Positions 6,125 to 64,000 of a stretch of 64,000 nt of DNA are shown here, in pieces. The notes under the pieces are model-generated. The model was not told where the DNA came from and did not search any database. It worked only from the letters and a program-made list of their open reading frames with translations. The DNA is from Basidiobolus meristosporus CBS 931.73 (lineage: Eukaryota > Basidiobolomycota > Basidiobolomycetes > Basidiobolales > Basidiobolaceae). Made by a program: the position numbers and the translations under genes. Within the stretch, counting starts at the first letter, position 1; each line of letters opens with the position of its first letter. The stretch covers positions 39,986 through 103,985 of the forward strand of contig MCFE01000279.1 in the NCBI GenBank assembly GCA_002104905.1. Direction: 5' to 3'.

Positions 6125-7285
6125 TCTGTGGTAATGGAAGGTACTCCATTGCTACATATCTCAAAACCAATATTTCTCTCATTTCTTTATTTTGCTTTTT
6201 GCTATTGTAACACACAAGTAAAAGATCAAGAATTTCCAACTTTGTAGGACAAATGCTCCAGAACCTGACAGGAAATCCACCCAAGAATATTATGTCATGC
6301 AGAATACTCAGAAGTTAACACATGTTTCAAATTACAGCTCATCTGAAGCTGTACTTAAGCAGTTATGATCAAAAGAGTGCAATTATCATATATACCAGGC
6401 CTCTATTGCTAGAATTACTATGGTGACTTCAATCACATGTGACTTTTGAGCCAGCCAATCATGTCATGTGATATTTATGCAGGTCCTTTGCCCATGTCTG
6501 ATCAGTGCCACTGCAAAATCTTAGCTTTGTATCACAAGTATTGCGTGTGCAATTGACCAAAAACCTTGATCCTTCAGAAATTTCATATATGTGACTTCCC
6601 CAGCTGAACAATAAAGGAGAGCCTCTCTTTCCAGAATCTTCACCCTAAAATTACAAGCTTAAAGGTTATAAGACCTCCCCTGCATCACTTGCACTGTTGA
6701 GTATTCTGACTTTGATTGGCACTACATCAGTAAAGTGACTGCAAAGCTCACAAGAACTCCAATCTAAATTCTACAAGAAAACTACCACTTTTTTGATGGA
6801 AAAGTACCCTCTAAGAAGCCCCCTTACTCTAAAGACACCCCTTTAGACACCCCTTTAGTCTAACAACCCCTTTAAGAAACCCCTTTACTCTAAAGAAGCC
6901 CCTGTAGGCACCCCTTTTGTGTAGAGTCCACATTAGAAACCACTACACCACACCCTTTTGTGTTAAAGGGGAGATCAAAATTTCTATATTAGGAGATATT
7001 TTCTCAGATAGAAAAGGGATTCCCAAATTAGGAAAAGTCACTATAAAAGTAAATAAGCCCAATAGTCATCAGAAGGTCAGAACACTGCTGTAGAAGTGAG
7101 AAGCACTGCCTATTGTATATTTTGAGCCCAAGATTGAGGATATTAGTGAAAGTTATATCTTCTAGTGGTATATCAAGCTCCCAATGACTATTTCAGTATT
7201 AGCATACTAGAAGTTGTTGTATATTGTTGATTAGCCCCTATATTACAGAACAAGCCCTGAACTAATCATGATACAACACAACAGA
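6125..7285 (+). repeat. Right terminal inverted repeat
   Basis: Reverse complement of 1,322-2,478 and same orientation as 1-1,128. The CCCCTTTA cluster lies at about 6,815-6,965. The outer end reads CTAATCATGATACAACACAACA. Similarity between arms begins abruptly at the CCATTACCACAG motif (about 6,130) and continues to the end. Confidence 0.7.
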
Positions 7286-16920: not shown

Positions 16921-19900
16921 TCAGATGTGGTACATTGACTCAGGAGCATCTCAACACTTTACACACCAAAAAGTACTTTTTACCCAATACCAAGAAATAC
17001 TATTAAGAAGGTTTCATGGGTGATGATAGAACACTTTGATACAGTGGGAGAAGGAACTATCCAAGTAAGCCTTAGAAGCAGTGAAGGAAGCCATACACTG
17101 ACCTTTAAAGTAGTACTCTATATACCAGAGATAGCCAAGAACCTACTATCTATAAGTAAGGACACAGCAGAAGGACTCAGTCTCAGCTTTAACAAATCTG
17201 GATGCAGGATCACTGATCAAAATGGTGCCCATATTGCTTCAGGTATCAGAGATCAGAATCTTTACAAGTAGACTTATATCACATCATATCTGGAAGCCAA
17301 TATAAGAAATTGAATGAAGAAACACCAATGCTTTGGCACAGGAGATTTGGGCACATCAATTTTGATTATTTGTGCAAAATGATCAAAGATCAGCTAATTT
17401 CTGGAGTAAAAATTGCTCCCCCAGCTTATTTGGAGCACTGTAAAGCCTACATATATGGGAAACAGACCATACCACCACTCAAGAGCTCTGGGTTAATCAA
17501 TACTAAGAAAAAATTAGATCTAATTCACTCAGATCTGTGTGGACCTATGCAAAGTTTATCCTTAGCCAAGATGAAGTACTTAATCACTTTTATTGATGAT
17601 TATACAAGATACATGTGGATCTACTTCATGGAGAGAAAGGAAGAAGCTCTGTATAAGCTCAGGGAGCTGAAAGCCATGGTGGATAGAGAAACTGGTGAAA
17701 AAATCAAGAAAATATGCTCTAAAAATGGTGGAGAGTATACCTCAAAACTCTTCATCCACTTCTGCATATTCATAAGATAAAGCAAGAGACTGCTGTACCA
17801 TACTCCCCACAGCAAAATGGAGTAGCAGAATGTGAAACAGATCAATAATTGATACGGCCTGATCTGTGATCCTTGATCAAGAATTATCCTATGATTTTTG
17901 GGTGAAATCAGTTGCAACAGCTGTACACCTTAAAAATAGGAGTTATAACAGATTACTTGTGTATACAGCATATGCCAAGAAACTGCCTGGAAATCAGTTA
18001 AATTTTGAACCTATAAGCGTAAATTCCATATATTTGGGCTATTGCAGTGAGAGTAAAGCATACAGACTCTACAATACCAAAGCAAAGAAGCTAATTAAGT
18101 CCTATGATGTGCTGTTTGATGAAAACTCAAAATTCTTACAAAAAACAACATCAGATGATGATGAAAATCTGATATCAAGTCCACCAGTTGTCAGAATTGA
18201 ATTAGAGCAAAACAATGAAAGTTTTTTCACTCCAGAGGACTCTACAACCATGGTTCAGCCTGAATCAGTGCCTAGGAGTATCCTAGAAGTGAATATTCCA
18301 GTATCAGATTCCTGGAGAACCAACTGGACAAGAAATAGCCCAAATTACTATATCAATGAAGGTACAAGCTTAGCCTATGCCTATTCAGTCCATATTGATG
18401 AGCCCCAGACTGTAAAAGAGGCCCTAAATAGCCCTCAGACAAAGTTTTGGAGATCTGAAATGACTGAGGAATATCAGGCCCTGATGGAAAATCAAACTTG
18501 GGACTTGATCAAATTACCAATCAGCCAGAAGTCAATTGGATGCTGATGGTTCTTCAAAACAAAATATAAGGCTGATGATACAATTGAAAGATAAAAGGTA
18601 ACTCTTGTGGCCAAAGAGTACTCTTGAACAAAAGGACTTGACTATACTGAGACCTTTGCACTGGTAGCCAAGTTTGATTACATCAGATTGATATTGGCTA
18701 TTGCAGCCAAATACAAGCTTTTTATACATCAAATGGATGTAGAAACTGCTTTTTTGAATGGAGAACTGGATGAGGATGTGTATGGACCAACCTGATGGGT
18801 TTGGTGACCAAGATAACCCTGATTTGGTCTGCAAGCTTAAAAAATATATACATGGTCTTAAACAATCACCAAGAGCCTGGAATTACACAATGGATTCATA
18901 CTTGGATTTTTTAAGTTTCAAAAGGAGTAATGCTGACTATGATATATACAATAAGCCAGGTAGAGCAAATCCAGCTCTCTTAGCTCTATATGTGGATGAC
19001 CCTATTATGGCCACCAATAATCTAGCAACATTGGAAGATACTAAATCCAGCCTATCCAACAAGTTCAAGATGTCCAATCTAGGAGAACTCAGTTACTACT
19101 TAGGAATAAAGCTCTCCATAGACAGAAGTACCCAGACTATTACCCTAAGCCAATCCAAGTATATTCCAGATATACTAAAGAAGTACCAAATGGAAGACTG
19201 TAAACCAGCAGCTACCCCAGTGGTGACAAACCTTAACTTGGTCAAAACTCAACCAAATCAAGAGAGCTTAGTGCCATCTGAAAGCCCTGCCATTCCTTAT
19301 CAATCTATGGTTGGTAGTCTAATGTATATCATGCTTGGAACATGTCCAGATATCTCATATTTGGTGGGAGTTGTCAGCCAACATAATCAGAACTATGGAT
19401 CTGATCATATTGCAGCAGTTGAGCAAATTTTTAGATAGATAAGGAACTGCTGATATCTGCTTAAGATACATTTATAAGGATTCAGAACAGGATCTTTTGG
19501 GATACTCTGATGCTAATTGGGGACAAAGTTTGGAAGACAGATGATCCACCACAGGATACACCTTTCTTTACTGTAAAGGAGCAATATAATGGAATTCAAG
19601 AAAGCAACCAACCGTAGCACTTTCCACCATGGAGGCAGAGTATATGGCAGCCTGTGAAGCTAGAAAAGAAGCAATATGCTTAAGAGAGCTTTTTACAGAT
19701 TTAGGCCTATGTCAAAAAACACCTATTAATTTATTTCAAGATAATCAAGGATGTATATGATTAGGTAGAAATCCAACTTTTAATACTAGAACTAAGCACA
19801 AAAGTATTAGACATCATTTCATACGTGAAGCTATGAAGAATAAATAGGTAGCTTAGTTTACTGCCCTTCAGATGAAACAATTGCCGACATATTTATCAAA

Positions 19901-47712: not shown

Positions 47713-49000
47713 TTAGGCAAGGTTCTTGATGACCTCAGCGGTGAATTGGCTGTTGGTAGATTTGCCACCCAAATCACCAGTGAGAGCCTTGCCCTCGGCG
47801 ATGGTTTTGAGAACAGCGGATTCGATGGAGTCAGCGAAGGGCTCGAGCTTCATATGGCGAAGCATCATCACGGAGCTGAGAAGAAGGGCGGTGGGGTTGG
47901 CCTTGTCCTGTCCAGCGATATCAGGGGCGGTACCGTGAACAGACTCGAAGATGGAGGCAGTCTTGCCAATGTTACCAGAAGGAGTGAGGCCAAGACCACC
48001 GATCAAACCGGCGCACATATCGGAGATGATATCACCATACAAGTTGGGCATGACCATGACGGCATCGGCGTAGGTGTTGGGGTCTTGAACAACGTGAAGG
48101 CAGGCACGATCAAGCAAGACATCATCAAACTTAATTTGAGGGAACTCCTGAGCAACATCACGGCAAGCACTCAAGAAGAGACCATCGGACATCTTCATGA
48201 TGTTGGCCTTGTGAACAGCAGTGACACGCTCACGTCCGTTGGCAACGGCGTATTCGAAGGCGTATCTAGCACAACGCTCGGAAGCCTCTCTGGTGATCAA
48301 CTTGATGGATTGAACAACACCATCAACAACCTCGTGCTCAATACCAGAGTACTCTCCTTCAGTGTTCTCTCTGATCAAAACAGTGTTGACGTTGTCATAA
48401 AGGGTCTTGTAGCCGACAATGCTCTTGCAGGGACGAACATTGGCGTAAAGGTCGAAGGTTCTTCTCAAGGTCAAGTTGAGAGAAACGTGACCCTTACCAA
48501 TGGGAGTAGCCAAAGGACCCTTCAAAGCAATCTTGTTCTTGGTGACAGAGTGAAGAGCTTCATCGGGAATAACAGTCTTTCCCTCTCTGATAACGGGAGT
48601 AACGTCAACCTCCTCCCATTCGATTGGGACATTGGCAGCAGAGTAGATTTCCTTGACCGATTTGGAGATCTCCGGGCCAATACCGTCACCAGGAATTAAA
48701 GTTACAACATAGTTACCCTTGAAAGAGGAAAATGAGTGCGTTTCCAACAGCCATGGGAAATAGGTGGCGGACTTACAGTGGCGGGGTTCTTGTTCAAAGC
48801 AGGGGCGGAAGTGGCGGTGGCCAAGGCTCTGACAGCTGAGAACTAGAGTTTCAACAGAGTATTAGCTTGATATTCCAAACGCCACGACACAGATTCTGGG
48901 TGCGGGAATCGAGGCAAACGAAGAATTCAGGAGCGCATCGTACCTGAGCAGTGTTACGTAGCACTCTAAGAGCGGAGGGGGCAGACTTGGACAAGAACAT
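47713..49000 (-). CDS. IDH2: NAD-dependent isocitrate dehydrogenase, catalytic subunit
   Basis: Mitochondrial TCA-cycle enzyme (isocitrate + NAD to 2-oxoglutarate + CO2 + NADH), a partner of a regulatory IDH1 subunit encoded elsewhere. Spliced model on the minus strand: 49,000-48,944; 48,842-48,777; 48,717-47,713, giving 375 aa (yeast Idh2 is 369). The first ~40 residues ([13 protein letters not shown]) look like a mitochondrial presequence. Core motifs: [58 protein letters not shown] and H-G-T-A-P-D-I-A-G. The R-E-N-T-E-G-E-Y motif points to the catalytic subunit. Introns are 101 and 59 nt. Codon bias makes a 339-codon antisense open frame that is not a gene. Confidence 0.95.
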
Positions 49001-55046: not shown

Positions 55047-57246
55047 TTAAATTCGCTCGCATTTGTCACACATACACAGCGGGTAAAATGGCCTATTGTT
55101 ATCGTTGACTGTATCTTGAGTTCTGCTCCAAGACAGGCCTACAGCCATGTGTTGTGAGTATGCTATGTCCAACTCTGGAGATTCAGCAATTGTGTCACAC
55201 TTGGACTTCGACAAGGGCAAAAATGAGTTGTGTGGTAATTCTATTAGCGACCTTTGACGAATCAAGTTATTCTGATTATTCTTCCGACTTGATGTCCAGC
55301 CGGGTAATTGAAAAGTTTCAATTGCCAGTGTTGGCATCGAGAGACGTCGTGGTCCCCTGCTAGAGTTGGGTTGCTGTCCCCTTTTAGCGGATAGCTTCCT
55401 TGACAAGGACAAACTCGGGTTTGTCGATTTGTAATGTGAAGGTGGTACGGGTTTGTATAGTGTTTTTTCGGTTTTTGTTCGGAGTGCTTCGGTCATGGTA
55501 GAGTTTGGATCTCTTAAAAAGTCGTATATGCTCTCTTTTTGCTTCGAGATGTAACCACGTTGGTGTTCCAGTTGGGAGTTCGGGCTGGATTTGCGGTCGT
55601 ACAATATACTACGCCTCATTACTACTGGGGGTCGAGGGATATATTTCTTTGAAACCTTCAGTGGGGAGTTGAAGTTAAACAAGATTTCTTCATTGAAGCA
55701 GTTATGATTATGAATACTTTGGGAGGTGTAATCGGTGCGCTCTTCAAACATTCGTAAACAGTCTCTGCTTTCTTCATAGGTAAAGAGGTTTTCCTATATT
55801 CTTGGGGGAGGCTGGACATTGCCTCAGCTCTCACATGTTTGCAACCAGGCTTGGTTGGTGTACTTGTCTGGATGCTTTCGTTGGTTTTATGAAGCTGAGC
55901 ATATGTAGAGAATTTCCTTAGGTCAGTACATTGGTAACAAAGTGAATATTATTCCCATCAGTATATCATTTCGTTACCTCAGTACTGCATAGTCTGTTTG
56001 GTGCAAGTGGCGTCTTCTTGGTTTTGTTTGCACAGAGAGCCTCCTCGGACGACTCATCCTTGTTGACAAGATGTCAATGAATCCACCTTGAATAAGCTGC
56101 TATCTGCTTACTAGCTAACACAATAGTATAGGTGACACTTACAGTAGATTCCGCACCGGTTGTAGGCATGCAGGATTCGGTATTTATGGGATTTTCTTGG
56201 CTGGGACTTTGACTATCTAAATCAGGTGGCATGTAGCGGAAAAACCCCGTTTTTTGTGAGGTTGGGATTTCAGAGAGGGTGTTGTTTCCTGACGGCCTCG
56301 ATTTCCCTCGAAAGAGGAAGAAGGCGAGGGACTTTCCTTTCTTCGGTGATGCCTCATACAATGGGGACTCAAAATATTCCTGCCTTCCTGTTTCGATAAG
56401 GAGTTGAGTTTTCTCGCGACTCTGATGGGTGTACTTGGTATTGAACGATGCTTGAAAACCTTCTGAAGGGATTCTTGAGATTGACTTTTTCTTGCTTAGA
56501 TTCGCCGCATTCTTTGATTCTCTCGCGATTGCCTCCGCGATCACACGTGTCTACAAACAGCGATGTAAGTATCTTCGAAATTTCGCAGGGGGTTTGATAG
56601 GTCGAACCTGGATTTTTGTGTAGATTATCATTGTACGGAATAATTCGTTGATGTTGCTATCGACGTCCAATCCATTAAACACCTCCTCCAACCCAATGTA
56701 GGTTTTTAACTGTTGCTTAGCCATCACTGCCACGCTGTTGATTAAAAATCTAGCAACGTATTCAAGCAAGGCGGTGATGAAGATTACGGTGATGCTGGTA
56801 AAATCTTCTCCAGCCTGTTGCGGCCCAAGCAGTAACCGCAACGGGTTCGCATGTTCGGTTCCTAGTGCGCTATATCTCAGGCATTTTGCTCGTAGCTGCT
56901 CATACCGAACCGTCTCATTGGCGTCTGGCAAAGCCATGATTTCTGGCTCAACACGGTTGTGATTTGCGGTGCAGATGCTGGGCTGAGTGGCTAAGCTCGG
57001 CAGAGTTTTCTTGGAAAAACTATGAGCGCTACAGATAGCCTCTTTTGCAAACTGCTTATTGGGAACAAGTTTTAGTAGCGATGTTTCTACCCCCGAGATG
57101 TCCATCTTATCGGTAGGGAGATGCACAATCAAAAGATACAGGATCTCGTCTAGAAACCCATTGATGGCAAACACAGCATCATTTGTCAAAGAGAAGGAGC
57201 CGATCTGGGACATGATGGATTTGGTCGCCCTTGAAGTCACGTACAT
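55047..57246 (-). CDS. Possible histone-fold protein, unnamed fungal family
   Basis: Exon 1 (57,246-56,608) and exon 2 (56,550-56,143) join in phase; a later exon from about 55,793 to 55,047 reads into the last ORF after an ATATAG acceptor. A middle exon may be missing from this model. Residues ~10-55 (L-D-E-I-L-Y-L-L-I-V ... V-E-T-S-L-L-K-L-V-P) and ~115-200 (Y-E-Q-L-R-A-K-C-L-R-Y-S-A-L-G ... I-F-I-T-A-L-L-E-Y-V-A-R-F-L-I ... I-G-L-E-E-V-F-N-G-L) fit a helix-strand-helix pattern. They recall a fungal family with an H2A-like long central helix, known to me only as uncharacterised. The C-terminal half is long, basic, Ser/Pro-rich and probably disordered. Function unknown. Confidence 0.5.
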
Positions 57247-59460
57247 TGCATCTAACGGGTAGAGGTCAACTAAATGAAGCCAGGTATCAAGTCACTGTTG
57301 CCAACAATGGTACCTTTGGGCGAGAGTAGACGCATTCTCAACGGTGCAGACGTACTAAAAACGATGTATGAAGGCGCTAGAGCCACAATGGAAGGGTGAA
57401 TTCGGCTTACAAGACAAAATGGTCAGTGGCAGATCAGAAACGAGGCGTGGACCAAGTAAAAAATTGGGAGAACGAGCGTGATGGTCCGGTATTTAATATG
57501 CCAACAGGAGTGCGTTATTAACATTTCTGTGGATATACGCGGGGCCATTTTCAAATGAAGAATGCATTCCGAATGAAGGCATATCGGTGGACGGCCCACA
57601 AATTCAAGGAAGGTTACCTGTAAAATAGGCCAATGGATCCAATGTAAAGGATCTTTAATCGATCTGTAATGTAATGTGACCTTTGTTTTCAGGTGAGTGA
57701 ATATTATATCCTACTACGCTATTGCATAGGCCAAATAAATAGTAGACCAATCTCTTGCTCCAGAGACTCTAGAGGCTGTATACAGATCAATTTAATACGG
57801 TTGATTGTTAATTCATTCAAATCGGAGCATAACAGGGTCAATAGCAGTTAGATTAAGGGAATTAAGTGCAGTAGAGGTGGTGGTGTGTAGAGGATGCAAA
57901 AACACTGCCATGTACGAGTGCTGTACTTTGGAAACTTGGTGAATGAGCTGATCCTGCCTTCGCTTGCTTCCGTGCTATCTGCGTTGATTGTGTACTGCTA
58001 ACTCGGAATCATTCTCTTGACCTCTGGTATTATATATGGCACAATGGAGTACAGGTAATTCAGCCCAGCCTCACAATCAGAATTAACCAGAAAAGGCACC
58101 GATCTGGATTTTGTATAGATTCCCCTGAATGCAGGAAGTTTAGAGTTTGTTATGTTATACGCTATATACTCCATAGTGCAGTATGGATTCTTCGTGTTCT
58201 GGTTTGCTGGATATTGCTGGTGATGGTCTGGTTTAGAGCGATTTCAGTCACTAATTAAACCGCTGTTCTCTACGAAAAAGGAAAGTCCTGCTGAATAAAA
58301 ATGTGACATGGAGTGGCTTGAAGGATGTGCCTCTTCTGCATTGGCCACATAGCACAAATGTTTTGACCACTATTGATGACTGTGCCTACAGATGTATGCT
58401 TAACGGTGTGGCCAGAAATACATTACAAATAGGGATGCTGTGTTGAACAACCATAGGGTTGATAGCTTCCAGTGATGCCTATTTTGGTAAGCCAACTGCA
58501 GATTTGCACGAAATATATTACCTTTCCACTTGAGCATTTCGTCTTTTGGTCTTATGAAAGTGAAGCTATGCACTCCATTCAAATGATTCGCTCTATGGCT
58601 CGGAATATGCTAGATCCTTCTATCACTTGAATACAGTATAGCAATCAGCGCTTCTCGATGTACATATTACCAGCTAATATAGGCTCTGTTCGAGAGTGTT
58701 GATATTTACCGCCCAAAATAAAGTTCTAATCTGCTACTGGGTATATCACACTTGTTATACCGATATTTTGAGAGGATGTATTTTATAAGTGGGTCAATTA
58801 TCCCTAATAATCTTGAGTTTAGCTTAGATATCAGATGGCTTTCGGTTTATTCTGGCAGCCCAAGGGCTTTTTTGAAGTCCCAAAAAATATTCTAGAATAG
58901 GCCATACGGGGAAGAGTGAATTGACCATCAACCATGCATGTGCAAGTAGTATGGAAGCGAGCTCAAAATTTGAACACAAGCGCCTTTTTTGCATGTTGCC
59001 TAAATTAAAACTTCAGCCTTAAGCTTTTGCTGGTATTCCTACCTTCTTACTACAGGCTCGTGGTACTCCATGTCGTTTATATCCAACAACTTTATAACTT
59101 GTATACTTTTCTCAAATGCCACCCGCAAATTCTCATATTCTGTATGTGTAAAGGGTTTAAAAGGTTTGACATCTTAATTCTAACTCAAAATATAGCCTCT
59201 AACCCTGGCTTTTTGAGCTTGAAGGCTCAGTTCTAAAAGGTTAGTACCGGTTTTCAATATATTTGCCATCTTTGCATCCATACAGTTATGGCTGTACTCT
59301 ACAAACCATTTATTGGTGTGTATGATTCTAAATAATTTTCAACATGCAGCACTTCACACATGTAGCTACTGGTGTGTGTCTGGATGACTATGGATATAAC
59401 TCAAAGTGCTTCTTACCTATTGATAGCTCAGCTTAATCTTACTTGTAGGACATTTTCAAA
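57247..59460. other. 2.2-kb region at the border of the subtelomere
   Basis: No gene recognised. CpG density falls again from about 58,900 onward, marking entry into subtelomeric repeat DNA. ORFs at 58,400-58,582 and 59,027-59,236 have no motif. Confidence 0.35.
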
Positions 59461-59469
59461 TGTTAAGTC

Positions 59470-59575
59470 AAAAGCACTTTCATGAAATTGATGATGATGA
59501 TCCCATCAAAAGGCCATTGCAAAACTGGTATTCTATGACTGAGAGGGAATAGTGCCACCAGGATACCTCACATCA
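59470..59575 (-). repeat. Short repeat shared with the left repeat block
   Basis: The reverse complement matches about 8,400-8,480, including the near-identical core CCTTTTGATGGGATCATC, CTCTCAGTCA.A (CTCTTAGTCACA) and CCTG.TGG. It links the telomere-proximal and internal repeat populations. Confidence 0.5.
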
Positions 59576-59664
59576 GAATAGTACAGTACCCTCATTATCT
59601 ACAAAAACCAATCAAAATTATTTGTTCAAATGGCCATTAGGTTGCTTTCATGGGGGCCATGAAA

Positions 59665-59900
59665 GCCACTGCATGGTGAATTCTATGTTTACTCAGTACA
59701 AGTATCTCAGGAAGCCAATGTTTTCTGAAAATTTTCTTAGAAAGTTAGGTTAGGGGGCTATTTTCCTGGAGAGATAGGGCTGAGAGTTGAGAAGCAAAGT
59801 ACTTTAAATTTTCAAGTTTCCTAAGTCTAAGTTGCAATTTCTGGAAAGTCAAGTTTGCAATGTGAGAACCTAAGTGTAGCTCAGGCTGTTGTAATAGCTC
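59665..59900 (-). mobile_element. Degenerate SINE-like copy, innermost of the subtelomeric chain
   Basis: A diverged version of the SINEs farther right: TGGTGAATTCTATGTTTACT, ACAAGTATCTCAGGAAGCCAA, TCTTAGAAAGTTAGGTTAGGGG, GAGAGTTGAGAAGC and AGCTCAGGCTG align with the consensus. It is followed by GATAGGGTTAGGGTTTAGGG at about 59,906-59,925, the first telomere-like junction. Confidence 0.55.
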
Positions 59901-59927
59901 TGAAGATAGGGTTAGGGTTTAGGGTTA

Positions 59928-60377
59928 GGGGGAGGAAAGTCACCAAGTAGTGAAATCTTTATTTACTTATGACAAGTATCTAAAGAAGCCAAGTTAATCT
60001 GAAGTTATTCCTAGTTAGCTAGGTCTGAGAGAGGTTTCCTGGAAAGCCAGGCCTGAGAAGTGAGAATCTGAATATATCTGAGCTAAGTTATACTGGTTTG
60101 CGGTAGGTGGATTGTGGCCGGAAAGGCCAGTGGACTGGGGGAACTGAGATGAATTTCTGGGCGATCACTGGCCATATTTACTAGGCAAATCTGGCCATTA
60201 GCATTTCAAGGATTTCAGCCAATCAGAGCCTTTACTTTGCCCAATAGTTGATCAAGCCATCTCCCAATGAGCACACATCAATTTATTAATCAAATTTTTG
60301 CTGGATCCAGGATTTGAACCCACAACCATGGGTATGGAAGGGTTAGGGATAACCACAAGGCTAAGTGTTCTTGGTTA
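59928..60377 (-). mobile_element. tRNA-headed SINE, copy S1 (two-hairpin form)
   Basis: On the minus strand the element starts with a tRNA-like head at the right: A box TAGCCTTGTGG (about 60,352-60,363 complement) and a perfect B box GGTTCAAATCC (complement of GGATTTGAACC at about 60,310-60,320). It ends at the left with the common tail containing AAATAAAGATTTCAC. This copy has only two of the CCTRG hairpins (60,010-60,023 and 60,038-60,051); the first looks like a fusion of hairpins 1 and 3 of the longer copies, implying an internal deletion or ancestral form. Confidence 0.75.
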
Positions 60378-60390
60378 GGGGGGGGGAGGG

Positions 60391-61460
60391 GGGGGGAGAC
60401 AGTCACCAACAGGTGAAATCTTTATTTCAGTTGAAACAAAGAAGCCAGCGCTACTGTTGTAGCTTTGATACAAGAGTGTGTAGCTGAGGGGAATTTGTAG
60501 GTAAGTTAATAAGAAGTGATGATAGTTCTTCAGTGCTCAAGACACTGTTCAGTGGGAAGGGGGGTAGCAAGAGAGGTAAGAATGACTTGTGAACAACATT
60601 AATGAGGGGAATGTGATAAGGATTGATATTCATCATAAAGGGAGTGTGCTGCTGCAGATATTGCTGCCAAAGGTCTGTCAAGTACTTCAGGTAGGCCAGC
60701 TTGGGTTTTTCTGACTGCAGAATATAGTGAGCAAACTTCTTGACTTCAGGATCTCCAAGTATAGTTCTCCAGCAGGAGCCAGGTGTTGCGTGGTGTGTTC
60801 TCTTCCAGGCCTTAATCAGTGGGTTGTTGCAGTTGTGAAGTCTGAGGTATAATCTGGTTCTAAGGTAGAGAAGTCTGATCTTATAGGGCATAAACCCAAA
60901 AGCACCAAGAATAGCATGTCTGTAGGGGCATTCAGGCAAATGAGGCACCAAGGAGGTAATGCACCATACTGCAAACTTGTCAAGCTTAGTGCAGTCTCTA
61001 GAAGTAAGAGAGAGAAGTGGTAAGCCAAATTCCAGGACAGGGAAGACAAACTGCTTGAGTAGAAGGAGGCAGCTGGGAGCTGAAGTTGTAGGAGGAGTAA
61101 CAGCCAGTAGCTTGTGGAGTGCCTGTCTTGCTAGGATAATTCTCTTCTTCAGGTGTGCTCCAGAGTCTAGTCCAGTAGGAAGGAAAGGAAAGCCAAGATA
61201 TGTAGCAGAAACCTGAGCAGGTAGAGTGGAGTTCTCCAAGTTGATGGGAGAGCCCAAAGGTACTGTCTTTGCAATGGAAAGCTGGAGATTATTCTTCTGC
61301 AGATACTGGTGGATGGTCTGGGAGTCTTGTTGCACATTGGAGGAGGATATTCTGATGTCATCAGCAAAGAGAGTAACCAGGCAGTCAGCTGAGAGTCTTG
61401 GGAAATCATTCAGGAAGATGGCAAACAGTATAGGACCAAGCACAGAGCCTTGAACCACTT
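60391..61460 (-). mobile_element. 5'-truncated non-LTR retrotransposon L1 with reverse-transcriptase ORF
   Basis: Open frame of 335 codons (61,458-60,451). It starts at the truncation edge inside the RT palm with V-Q-G-S-V-L-G-P-I-L-F and has T-L-F-A-D-D-I-R-I, the catalytic F-A-D-D box of LINE reverse transcriptases. The C-terminal region continues about 250 residues without a recognised endonuclease. Domains upstream of the palm are missing. The 3' tail (TCACC-AACA-GGTGA hairpin complement at 60,403-60,416, then AAATAAAGA on the RNA strand) is shared with the SINEs. The 5' edge at 61,460 reads ACTTAGGGGGG, a telomere-like junction with the next element. Confidence 0.8.
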
Positions 61461-61987
61461 AGGGGGGAGGAAAGTCACCAAGTGGTGAAATCTTTATTTA
61501 CTTATGACAAGTATCTAAAGAAGCCAAGTTAATCTGAAGTAATTCCTAGAAAGCTAGGTCTGAGAGATATCTTCCTGGTAAGCCAGGTCTGAGAGTTGAG
61601 AAGCTGAGTGGTACTATATTTCCTAGTTAGCTAGGTCTGAGAGAGGTTTCCTGGAAAGCCAGGCCTGAGAAGTGAGAATCTGAATATATCTGAGCTAAGT
61701 TATACTGGTTTGCGGTAGCTGAATTGTGGCCGGAATGGCCAGTAGACTGGGGGAACTGAGATGAATTTCTGGGCGATCACTGGCCAAATTTACTAGGCAA
61801 ATCTGGCCAATTAGCATTTCAAGGATTTCAGCCAATCAGAACCTTTACTTTGCCCGATGGTTGATCAAGCCATCTCCCAATGAGCACACATCAATTTATT
61901 AATCAAATTTTGCTGGATCCAGGATTTGAACCCACAACCATGGGTATGGAAGGGTTAGGGATAACCACAAGGCTAAGTGTTCTTGGT
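61461..61987 (-). mobile_element. tRNA-headed SINE, copy S2 (four-hairpin form, full length)
   Basis: A box complement at 61,965-61,975, B box complement at 61,922-61,932. The body contains four tandem 5-bp hairpins at 61,545-61,558, 61,574-61,587, 61,622-61,635 and 61,650-61,663, each followed by (T/C)CTGAGA, plus a TGGCC/GGCCA hairpin near 61,727. The 3' tail hairpin is at 61,475-61,488. The head also contains CCCTAACCC between the A and B boxes. It is separated from the next element by GGTTAGGGTG and further G-rich sequence. Confidence 0.8.
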
Positions 61988-62031
61988 TAGGGTGTAGGTG
62001 TTATAGTAAGGGCTAGGAAAAGGTTAGGGGG

Positions 62032-62463
62032 GATGATCATCACCAAAGGGTGAAATCTTTATTTAAATAATCAATAAAGAAGCCAAGTTTGAATATGAAT
62101 ATCTGAGATGCAGGAAGCCTACAAGATAAACTTGGACTTTGCTGTATCCCAAATATCCTCAGTATCAAAGTCTAGAGGAGAGTGCAGCAAGACTGCTTGT
62201 TCACTGTAGTATTTCTTGAGGAAGTTTGTGACTTGAAGGGAAGGAGAGTTTTTCAACAAGCTGGTAAATCTTTTGAGAAGTTCTTTTTCCAGAGAGAATG
62301 GCACAAAGAGTGGAATGTCCAAGTGATGTCTGAATATATGCTCTGAGAGCTCCCAATCCAGCATATTTTTGACTTCTTCTGTAAAATCTTCAACAATATC
62401 TTTGTCAAGAATAACTTCCAAGAGATCCCTGGCAATGTACTGAATGTTAATAATCTTAGGCAT
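62032..62463 (-). mobile_element. 5'-truncated non-LTR element L2 (C-terminal ORF fragment)
   Basis: Tail hairpin at 62,040-62,053 and CTTTATTT as in L1 and the SINEs. The 114-codon frame (62,463-62,119) is the C-terminal end of a larger protein. Its S-L-L-K-N-S-P-S ... F-L-K-K-Y-Y ... L-L-H-S-P ... W-D-T-A pattern recurs in L3, and P-F-S-L ... S-L-L-K-N-S-P resembles the L1 C-terminus (P-F-P-L ... S-L-L-I-N ... N-S-P). The ATG at 62,463 lies at the junction with TTAGGG repeats and is probably fortuitous. Confidence 0.65.
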
Positions 62464-62487
62464 ACTTAGGGTTAGGGTTAGGGTAGG
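62464..62487. repeat. Interstitial telomere-repeat junction
   Basis: ACTTAGGGTTAGGGTTAGGG followed by TAGGGGAGGG separates L2 from L3; the longest clean TTAGGG run inside the chain. Confidence 0.85.
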
Positions 62488-62752
62488 GGAGGGAAAGTCA
62501 CCAAGGTAGGTGAAATCTTTATTTGATTTCAGACAAGTCTAACTACTAATAAAGAAGCCAGCTGGGAATAAAAGATTCCCAAAGTAAACACTAAGTTGAA
62601 TATGAATAAATCTAAGCTAAAGTTAAGGCAGTATCCCAGAGTACACTGGAGTTCAGGTTCATGGGGGAGTGAAGTAGATAAGCTTGAGAGATATAATAAT
62701 CTTTAAGGAAGTGGGTAACAGCAGGTGAAGGGGAGTTTTTGATAAGTGAGGG
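62488..62752 (-). mobile_element. 5'-truncated non-LTR element L3
   Basis: Tail hairpin TCACC-AAGGTA-GGTGA at 62,498-62,513 with a six-base loop, then CTTTATTT. The minus-strand reading (about 62,748-62,612) S-L-I-K-N-S-P-S ... F-L-K-D-Y-Y ... L-L-H-S-P ... L-W-D-T-A is homologous to L2. The 5' edge at about 62,752 runs directly into GGGGTTAGGGGG. Confidence 0.65.
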
Positions 62753-63281
62753 GTTAGGGGGAGGAAAGTCACCAAGTGGTGAAATCTTTATTTACTTATG
62801 ACGAGTATCTAAAGAAGCCAAGTTAATCTGAAGTTATTCCTAGAAAGCTAGGTCTGAGAGATATCTTCCTGGTAAGCCAGGTCTGAGAGTTGAGAAGCTG
62901 AGTGGTACTATATTTCCTAGTTAGCTAGGTCTGAGAGAGGTTTCCTGGAAAGCCAGGCCTGAGAAGTGAGAATCTGAATATATCTGAGCTAAGTTATACT
63001 GGTTTGCGGTAGCTGAATTGTGGCCGGAATGGCCAGTAGACTGGGGGAACTGAGATGAATTTCTGGGCGATCACTGGCCAAATTTACTAGGCAAATCTGG
63101 CCAATTAGCATTTCAAGGATTTCAGCCAATCAGAGCCTTTACTTTGCCCAATGGTTGATCAAGCCATCTCCCAATGAGCACACATCAATTTATTAATCAA
63201 ATTTTGTTGGATCCAGGATTTGAACCCACAACCATGGGTATGGAAGGGTTAGGGATAACCACAAGGCTAGGTGTTCTTGGT
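62753..63281 (-). mobile_element. tRNA-headed SINE, copy S3 (four-hairpin form, full length)
   Basis: Nearly identical to S2. Hairpins at 62,839-62,852, 62,868-62,881, 62,916-62,929 and 62,944-62,957. Complete tRNA-like head with B-box complement at about 63,218-63,228; the A-box region has one change (GGCTAG for GGCTAA). It is joined to S4 by GGTTAGGGGGGGGAGGGGGTTAGGG-type sequence. Confidence 0.8.
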
Positions 63282-63310
63282 TAGGGGGGGGAGGGGGTTA
63301 GGGTAGGGGA

Positions 63311-63770
63311 GGAAAGTCACCAAGTGGTGAAATCTTTATTTACTTATGACAAGTATCTAAAGAAGCCAAGTTAATCTGAAGTTATTCCTAGAAAGCTAGG
63401 TCTGAGAGATATCTTCCTGGTAAGCCAGGTCTGAGAGTTGAGAAGCTGAGTGGTACTATATTTCCTAGTTAGCTAGGTCTGAGAGAGGTTTCCTGGAAAG
63501 CCAGGCCTGAGAAGTGAGAATCTAAATATATCTGAGCTAAGTTATACTGGTTTGCGGTAGCTGAATTGTGGCCGGAATGGCCAGTAGACTGGGGGAACTG
63601 AGATGAATATCTGGGCAATCACTGGCCAAATTTACTAGGCAAATCTGGCCAATTAGCATTTCAAGGATTTCAGCCAATCAGAGCCTTTACTTTGCCCGAT
63701 GGATGATCAAGCCATCTCCCAATGAGCACACATCAATTTATTAATCAAATTTTAGTTGGATCCAGGATTT
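63311..63770 (-). mobile_element. 5'-truncated SINE, copy S4, next to the telomere
   Basis: Hairpins at 63,387-63,400, 63,416-63,429, 63,464-63,477 and 63,492-63,505. The copy stops within the B box (GGATTT) and passes directly into GGGTTAGGG, so the A box is missing. This is what incomplete reverse transcription followed by telomere addition would give. Confidence 0.8.
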
Positions 63771-63851
63771 GGGTTAGGGTTAGGGTTAGGGTTAGGGTTA
63801 GGGTTAGGGTTAGGGTTAGGGTTAGGGTTAGGGTTAGGGTTAGGGTTAGGG

Positions 63852-63892
<41 letters not shown>

Positions 63893-64000
63893 GGTTAGGG
63901 TTAGGGTTAGGGTTAGGGTTAGGGTTAGGGTTAGGGTTAGGGTTAGGGTTAGGGTTAGGGTTAGGGTTAGGGTTAGGGTTAGGGTTAGGGTTAGGGTTAG
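63771..64000. repeat. Telomere, (TTAGGG)n
   Basis: About 38 repeats of TTAGGG reaching the window edge, with a single TTTAGGG variant near 63,870. The G-rich strand runs 5' to 3' toward the right, as expected for a right chromosome end. Confidence 0.97.

Follow-up and report, generated by a model that had tools for sequence, protein, structure and literature searches.

In Drosophila, HeT-A, TART and TAHRE form chains at the chromosome ends, with their 3' ends toward the centromere and with 5' truncation, and the Athena and Coprina elements, whose reverse transcriptase (RT) belongs to a different group, have been proposed to use exposed G-rich ends. Drosophila is an exception with regard to telomerase (PMC5537684). 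In fungi, MoTeR elements lie with their 5' ends toward the chromosome end, include truncated copies, are joined by (TTAGGG)1-10 and have a partner with a common 3' end (PMC7367193). FoTeR carries telomeric motifs at both ends, and both MoTeR and FoTeR group with CRE/SLACS/CZAR, elements with a restriction-like endonuclease (REL) (PMC12857005). Here we describe the right end of contig C512 of Basidiobolus meristosporus CBS 931.73 (G000:C512:39986-103985), a stretch of 64,000 nucleotides (nt) that we call the window, whose end coincides with the contig end and which carries a head-to-tail chain of long and short interspersed nuclear elements (LINEs and SINEs) joined by telomere repeats.

It is near certain that these elements form telomere-bound chains. 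A sequence-only reading of the window had named, as grounds for rejecting its proposal, a placement mostly at internal, non-TTAGGG sites or in both orientations; what we find across the assembly (89,006,234 bases, 1311 contigs) is placement at contig ends in one orientation. We collected 28 contig-end segments, which are merged loci found via the SINE and via the telomere pattern, plus one 9.4-kilobase (kb) stretch; tails occur in 27 of them (C2 has none), and all 90 3' tails point inward, 86 in minus sense near right ends and four in plus sense at the left end of C424. Because the segments were mostly picked for SINE content, two wider counts, of the SINE hairpin and of the protein of the LINE family LINE-A, weigh more. 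The exact 15-base SINE hairpin occurs 452 times in the assembly, 423 times forward and 29 times in reverse, a skew like that of overlapping (TTAGGG)4 24-mers (7428 forward, 81 reverse); the near-exclusive plus orientation of telomere repeats, and hence the preponderance of right contig ends, is perhaps a habit of the assembler. We followed the first 94 of the 452 hairpins in list order, a non-random sample, the remainder being covered by overall counts (450 gapped-pattern matches, in which some joints are counted twice). TTAGGG lies within 14 nt in 85 of these 94 tails, and 92 are forward, at a median of 3.0 kb and a maximum of 13.4 kb from the right end; the 40 that lie in contigs longer than 100 kb are all within 10 kb of it. 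The two reverse tails, C361:1000 and C80:18343, are 1 kb and 18 kb from their left ends.

The search with the LINE-A protein gave a concordant picture for the best 120 by score of 1499 candidate places; these 120 are 98-100% identical. Contigs longer than 40 kb hold 95 of these matches, 88 in minus sense and seven in plus sense; all 88 minus-sense matches fall in the last 12 kb before the right end, where 11.8% would be expected, and five of the seven in plus sense fall in the first 7 kb from the left end. Some contig sizes used here were interpolated by size rank, along which the known sizes are monotone. Of the remaining two matches, C558:96907 is internal and C726:58217 is reversed and 11 kb from the right end; both have CCCTAA at their 3' end, and so look more like displaced chains than like insertions elsewhere. 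The other 25 matches are in contigs of at most 40 kb, 24 in minus sense and one, on C217, in plus sense. Looking from the telomeres inward, we find that six right ends among 20 of the largest contigs end in about 200 nt of telomere tract, and with C1 and C2, added from the telomere pattern, eight such ends were examined: seven have LINE-A or the SINE at the tract or within about 60-160 nt of it, in the same orientation. At C413 the gap beside the tract is LINE-A 5' region, which was absent from the element library used, and at C1090 no library element adjoins the tract. None of 20 left contig ends fetched starts with a telomere. A genome-wide dispersal of these elements is ruled out by the inward orientation and end-bound placement of the tails and of LINE-A.

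The chain in the window and its neighbourhood

Direct reading and repeat finding bear out what the sequence-only reading had described: seven elements, in the order S1, L1, S2, L2, L3, S3, S4, span 59931-63770 in a single orientation with their 3' ends toward the centromere. A TTAGGG or a G-rich variant does stand at each junction, and L1, L2, L3 and S4 are indeed 5'-truncated, while S1, S2 and S3 extend to the SINE 5' end (GTTCTTGG on the plus strand). The 3'-tail motif is present in seven copies on the same strand, at 59910-59964, 60373-60427, 61445-61499, 62010-62064, 62470-62524, 62739-62793 and 63287-63341, and there are no inverted repeats of at least 30 nt in 57001-63770. With up to one mismatch, TTAGGGTTAGGG matches 41 times in the window as against 0.22 in shuffles, which rules out chance occurrence of TTAGGG; 36 of the matches are in the terminal tract, four in chain joints and one elsewhere (21759). 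The features of the chain are as follows.

59648..59800, minus strand: decayed copy resembling the SINE, on the proximal side of the chain, 66-74% alike to S1-S4 (ungapped)
59905..59930, plus strand: telomeric joint ATAGGGTTAGGGTTTAGGGTTAGGG at the chain base (direct reading, telomere-pattern search)
59931..60374, minus strand: S1, SINE, 5' end reached, about 77 nt missing internally (direct reading, repeat finding)
60375..60396, plus strand: joint, TTAGGG then a G-rich run (direct reading)
60397..61458, minus strand: L1, LINE-A, 5'-truncated (PF00078, E 7.3e-10); its open frame 60451-61458 is the C-terminal part of the RT protein
61459..61464, plus strand: joint, a single TTAGGG (direct reading, spacer analysis)
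61465..61986, minus strand: S2, full-length SINE (direct reading, repeat finding)
61987..62030, plus strand: joint between S2 and L2, TTAGGG, 31 nt like another repeat's tail, and TTAGGGG (direct reading)
62031..62465, minus strand: L2, 5'-truncated 3' piece of family C (same 3' hairpin tail)
62466..62489, plus strand: joint, three TTAGGG and TAGGGG (direct reading, telomere-pattern search)
62490..62750, minus strand: L3, 5'-truncated 3' piece of family B (same 3' hairpin tail)
62751..62759, plus strand: joint GGGTTAGGG (direct reading, spacer analysis)
62760..63280, minus strand: S3, full-length SINE (direct reading, repeat finding)
63281..63309, plus strand: joint, degenerate G-rich telomeric stretch (direct reading, tandem repeats)
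63310..63770, minus strand: S4, SINE, 5'-truncated, the most distal element (direct reading, repeat finding)
63771..64000, plus strand: terminal (TTAGGG)n tract to the contig end, 38.2 copies (tandem repeats)

Some further repeats adjoin these elements. The 31-nt tail-like stretch at 61993-62023 ends ACACCTACACCCTAA on the minus strand, has similar stretches by eye in L164, L061 and C1301, and is perhaps a fifth type of tail, one that lacks the hairpin. Another repeat, L061:8420-9175, adjoins a terminal tract and ends CAATAAAGCACTAGAA before CCCTAACCCTAA without a hairpin tail; it is perhaps another telomeric family. CCCTAACCCTAA is also found in the LINE-A 5' region (L061:4545-4790, and L154), together with a unit of about 115 nt; L061 has about two copies of this unit and L154 has one. 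Elsewhere in the window, the isocitrate dehydrogenase frame at 47713-48861 (minus strand) matches two proteins of Basidiobolus ranarum at 97% identity across 87% of the query, and the named matches after these reach 82-85%, which places the host in Basidiobolus. Copia-like pieces with integrase and RT frames lie at 17217-19438, and their family seems to lie right under a SINE on C780. A CCCCTTTA-rich unit forms tandem arrays at 593-792 and 6807-6917, and units of the same type recur in reverse orientation (TAAAGGGG) at 1669-1792. An Rfam scan of the window gave no match at gathering score.

Tails, joints and enzymes

LINE-A, families B and C and the SINE share one 3' tail, which reads AAATAAAGATTTCACC-loop-GGTGA, pyrimidines, a C-run and then CCCTAA-type sequence. 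The TCACC arm is in all 90 tails (the search selected for it) and the GGTGA arm in 88; the loops vary and the stem hardly does. RNA folding gives the hairpin in all four window tails tried, with z-scores of -1.5, -4.8, -0.8 and -2.4, so folding energy alone is not decisive. Hairpin, C-run and TA follow one another in 88 of the 90 tails, and the other two have longer C-rich runs ahead of TAG or TAACC. The distance from GGTG to TAA has its mode at 13 in LINE-A (9/18), the SINE (22/48) and family B (9/16), and in family C (n=6) is 14 in three, 13 in two and 12 in one; it is near constant though C-runs, whose lengths are possibly affected by sequencing error, differ, with outliers up to 18, as if a ruler set the position of priming. 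As to a tRNA-derived origin, the SINE head has A- and B-box-like motifs by eye; there is no Rfam tRNA match in 63000-63300, Rfam rows for the head are all far under their gathering scores, and ARAGORN finds no tRNA in the window. In 14 of 21 neighbouring SINE pairs the distal copy scores higher against the window's most distal copy (six lower, one tied), a signal of an age gradient along chains that is weak and, the query being a distal copy, biased; we do not use it.

The telomeric spacers between elements are short, with a median of 8 nt, at most 11 nt in 69 of 88 joints and at most 28 nt in 87, as measured by a walk that halts at the first mismatch and thus shortens degenerate stretches such as 63281-63309. 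Assembled terminal tracts at 22 telomere-bearing ends measure 60-234 nt, with a median of 210 nt or about 35 repeats (two further segment ends had none), and if insertion were even along a 210-nt tract about one in seven spacers would be expected to fall under 30 nt. The spacer reads CCCTAACC in 21 of the 88 joints, mostly ahead of a full-length SINE, and the SINE 5' end itself appears to begin with CC. The next element could be mapped to LINE-A or the SINE in 63 joints: 31 begin a full-length SINE, seven are unplaced within 4 nt and 25 begin truncated copies. These last 25 are the subject of the break-point analysis, which leaves out the seven and the 25 of 88 joints matching neither element, and no two of them share a break point. 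At these joints microhomology to the telomeric phase has a mean of 1.52 nt, where a simulated control gives 0.74 (P ~0.001), and the telomeric bases beyond it number 4-10 in 19 of 25, 13-27 in five and 92 in one. About one cycle on a CCCUAA template would give such lengths, whether the template is that of telomerase or an RNA tail. In some cases a tail comes after sequence of a long terminal repeat (LTR) element, as on C780, where that sequence matches by eye the window's Copia frame near 18.4 kb; this suggests healed breaks.

The RT domain of LINE-A is of non-LTR type (Pfam RVT_1, E 2.6e-25; best PDB match LINE-1 ORF2p, E 5.9e-13). Its N-terminal part is modelled with an endonuclease (EN) fold like that of apurinic/apyrimidinic endonucleases (APE), resembling the EN of TRAS1, and on this structure model LINE-A is an APE-type non-LTR element, which settles on APE among the classes that the sequence-only reading had considered (REL, APE or none). 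A REL-type endonuclease, as in MoTeR, FoTeR and the CRE clade, was considered and rejected, the LINE-A endonuclease being of APE type and Pfam giving no match C-terminal of the RT. The Asp-x-Asn and Ser-Asp-His motifs are retained, and the catalytic set is incomplete: by sequence alignment the catalytic Glu is replaced by Asp (LIDV) in all seven LINE-A copies that cover the site, and likewise in both relatives that cover it, P0001 and P0003. Relatives P0001-P0005 stand at 48-80%, and 55 others are far more distant.

The genome also holds a putative TERT-like gene. Telomerase_RBD matches C880:173109-173423 with 40.5 and 34.7 bits (cut-off 25), and the frames downstream contain LPKENGVRPIVNL, VDIKGAFDSI, GGIPQGS and LRLVDDFLYIS, which we take to be TERT motifs. 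The host thus appears to retain telomerase, in support of the earlier suggestion that the chains coexist with telomerase-type repeats.

How the chains may grow

Our best reading, which we place a little above even, is that the element tail base-pairs with a very short telomere at its GGG-3' end, that complementary DNA (cDNA) is added there, and that telomerase then recaps the product, so that two reverse transcriptases would alternate in building chromosome ends. The LINE protein would bind the hairpin and C-rich tail common to LINE-A, its partners and the SINE, which LINE-A would thereby mobilise, and the tail Cs would pair with the GGG-3' terminus of an end carrying one to a few TTAGGG units, either a telomere worn down almost completely or a break that has only just been healed. 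Synthesis of cDNA would start from the chromosome 3'-OH, and since synthesis would often be left incomplete, many copies would be 5'-truncated. Telomerase would recap the new 3' end, and repeated cycles would yield a head-to-tail chain with about one repeat per joint. In favour of this stand things that we observe, namely the layout, the orientation and the position at ends, the common tail, the phase of the junctions, the short spacers, the differing truncation points and the TERT-like gene, along with the Glu-to-Asp change in the EN; from these we deduce the pairing of tail and overhang, the use of short ends, the recapping and the mobilisation of the SINE. Several points weigh against this. 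The use of a free chromosome end as primer is something we infer; the LINE-A endonuclease, judging from its APE fold and retained motifs, may still cut; one spacer is 94 nt long; and tract and C-run lengths come from the assembly and may be clipped or miscounted. In nine of the 94 SINE tails followed there is no TTAGGG within 14 nt; the one of these that was read, on C353, has a C-run that passes into CCCCTAGG. It has also been argued for Pyricularia that long interstitial tracts may break and vanish, which would leave short spacers as well (PMC8381367).

That last argument serves the main rival, a telomere-specific endonuclease like that of TRAS/SART or MoTeR, which would nick the G-strand after GGG near the base of the tract; each insert would retain the distal tract, so the chain would grow, and inserts leaving long interstitial tracts would be lost by breakage. 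The sequence-only reading had offered end extension and a telomere endonuclease side by side, and the data lean to the former: 87 of 88 spacers are at most 28 nt and most amount to about one repeat, against terminal tracts of about 35, and the EN has Asp at the position of its catalytic Glu. We regard endonuclease insertion as possible and rather unlikely. Telomerase would not be needed between elements at all if the element RNA ran into CCCUAA, a telomerase-like template, and so carried the joint, or if RNAs were copied one after another by template jumping. The C-run and TA after 88 of 90 tails, mostly about one repeat at near-constant hairpin distance, speak for this, as does the recurrent CCCTAACC spacer before full-length SINEs that seem to start with CC; against it, a variable RNA end or true telomeric ends would be required for joints of 12-28 nt and for those of about 1.5 repeats, and we find the proposal doubtful. 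Chains might also spread ready-made by break-induced replication and subtelomere exchange, with few true insertions. Two of the 120 LINE-A matches, internal or reversed relative to the near end, keep their telomeric joints, so chains do get rearranged, but all 25 mapped truncation points differ and element order varies by eye between contigs, and as the main route recombination seems very improbable to us.

A more speculative version, which we give a small chance though a better one than either of the last two, is that the hairpin sets the RNA 3' end at ...CCCUAA and that the LINE RT behaves like a telomerase whose templates are very long, placing one TTAGGG and a gene-length cDNA on bare or broken ends; since no nick is needed at an end, the EN would have lost the Glu normally used in catalysis. 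If the telomeric unit is carried in the RNA in this way, one cell would have two enzymes, telomerase and that of the LINE, that could stand in for each other in adding to ends, with SINE RNAs as the common long template. The genome offers hundreds of natural junctions for studying how telomerase and the RT of a retrotransposon come to work on a single 3' end, and for asking about the relation of such elements to the origin of telomerase and whether a LINE can do without nicking.

Comparison with known systems

The Basidiobolus chains share with HeT-A, TART and TAHRE their location at ends, the inward 3' ends and the 5' truncation. In contrast to Drosophila, Basidiobolus has TTAGGG tracts and a candidate TERT-like gene, which together rule out telomerase replacement of the HeT-A/TART type, and its joints lack poly(A). 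Athena and Coprina are telomere-associated retroelements too; these Penelope-like elements are endonuclease-deficient, whereas LINE-A combines a LINE-type RT with an APE domain. The Bombyx mori elements TRAS and SART are of non-LTR type, lie within telomeric repeats and coexist with them (PMC10088271), a trait that recurs here, TTAGGG being close by in 85 of the 94 SINE tails followed, and TRAS1 and LINE-A share an APE-type EN fold in the structure model. TRAS and SART insert in opposite orientations (PMC10088271) and SART1 ends in poly(A) (PMC3747384), while the Basidiobolus elements keep one orientation and end in hairpin, C-run and CCCTAA-type sequence. In stringent-type pairs, such as that of UnaL2 or the fungal Mg-SINE with MGL, the SINE has the same 3' tail and stem-loop as the LINE (PMC3747384). 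A shared tail with a stem-loop is likewise present here, with the difference that in Basidiobolus it is linked to telomeric joints.

Among open-licence papers in PubMed Central we did not find the phrase 'telomeric SINE', nor, in titles and the starts of abstracts, a telomeric LINE or SINE of Basidiobolus; the available part of PMC11105155 does not contain 'telomer'. The fungal telomeric non-LTR elements that we found in that literature are REL-type CRE elements, and Basidiobolus has an APE-type LINE with a SINE partner. MoTeR1 and MoTeR2 of Magnaporthe (Pyricularia) oryzae and FoTeR of Fusarium oxysporum likewise lie beside TTAGGG repeats, and the earlier comparison with MoTeR holds for the layout and fails for the enzyme, MoTeR and FoTeR being of REL type and LINE-A having an N-terminal domain of APE type. 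FoTeR 3' joints have about 3-7 repeats where those of the Basidiobolus chains mostly have one. The chain layout is thus close to MoTeR arrays and FoTeR joints, and it differs in enzyme type, in having a SINE partner and in its one-repeat joints.

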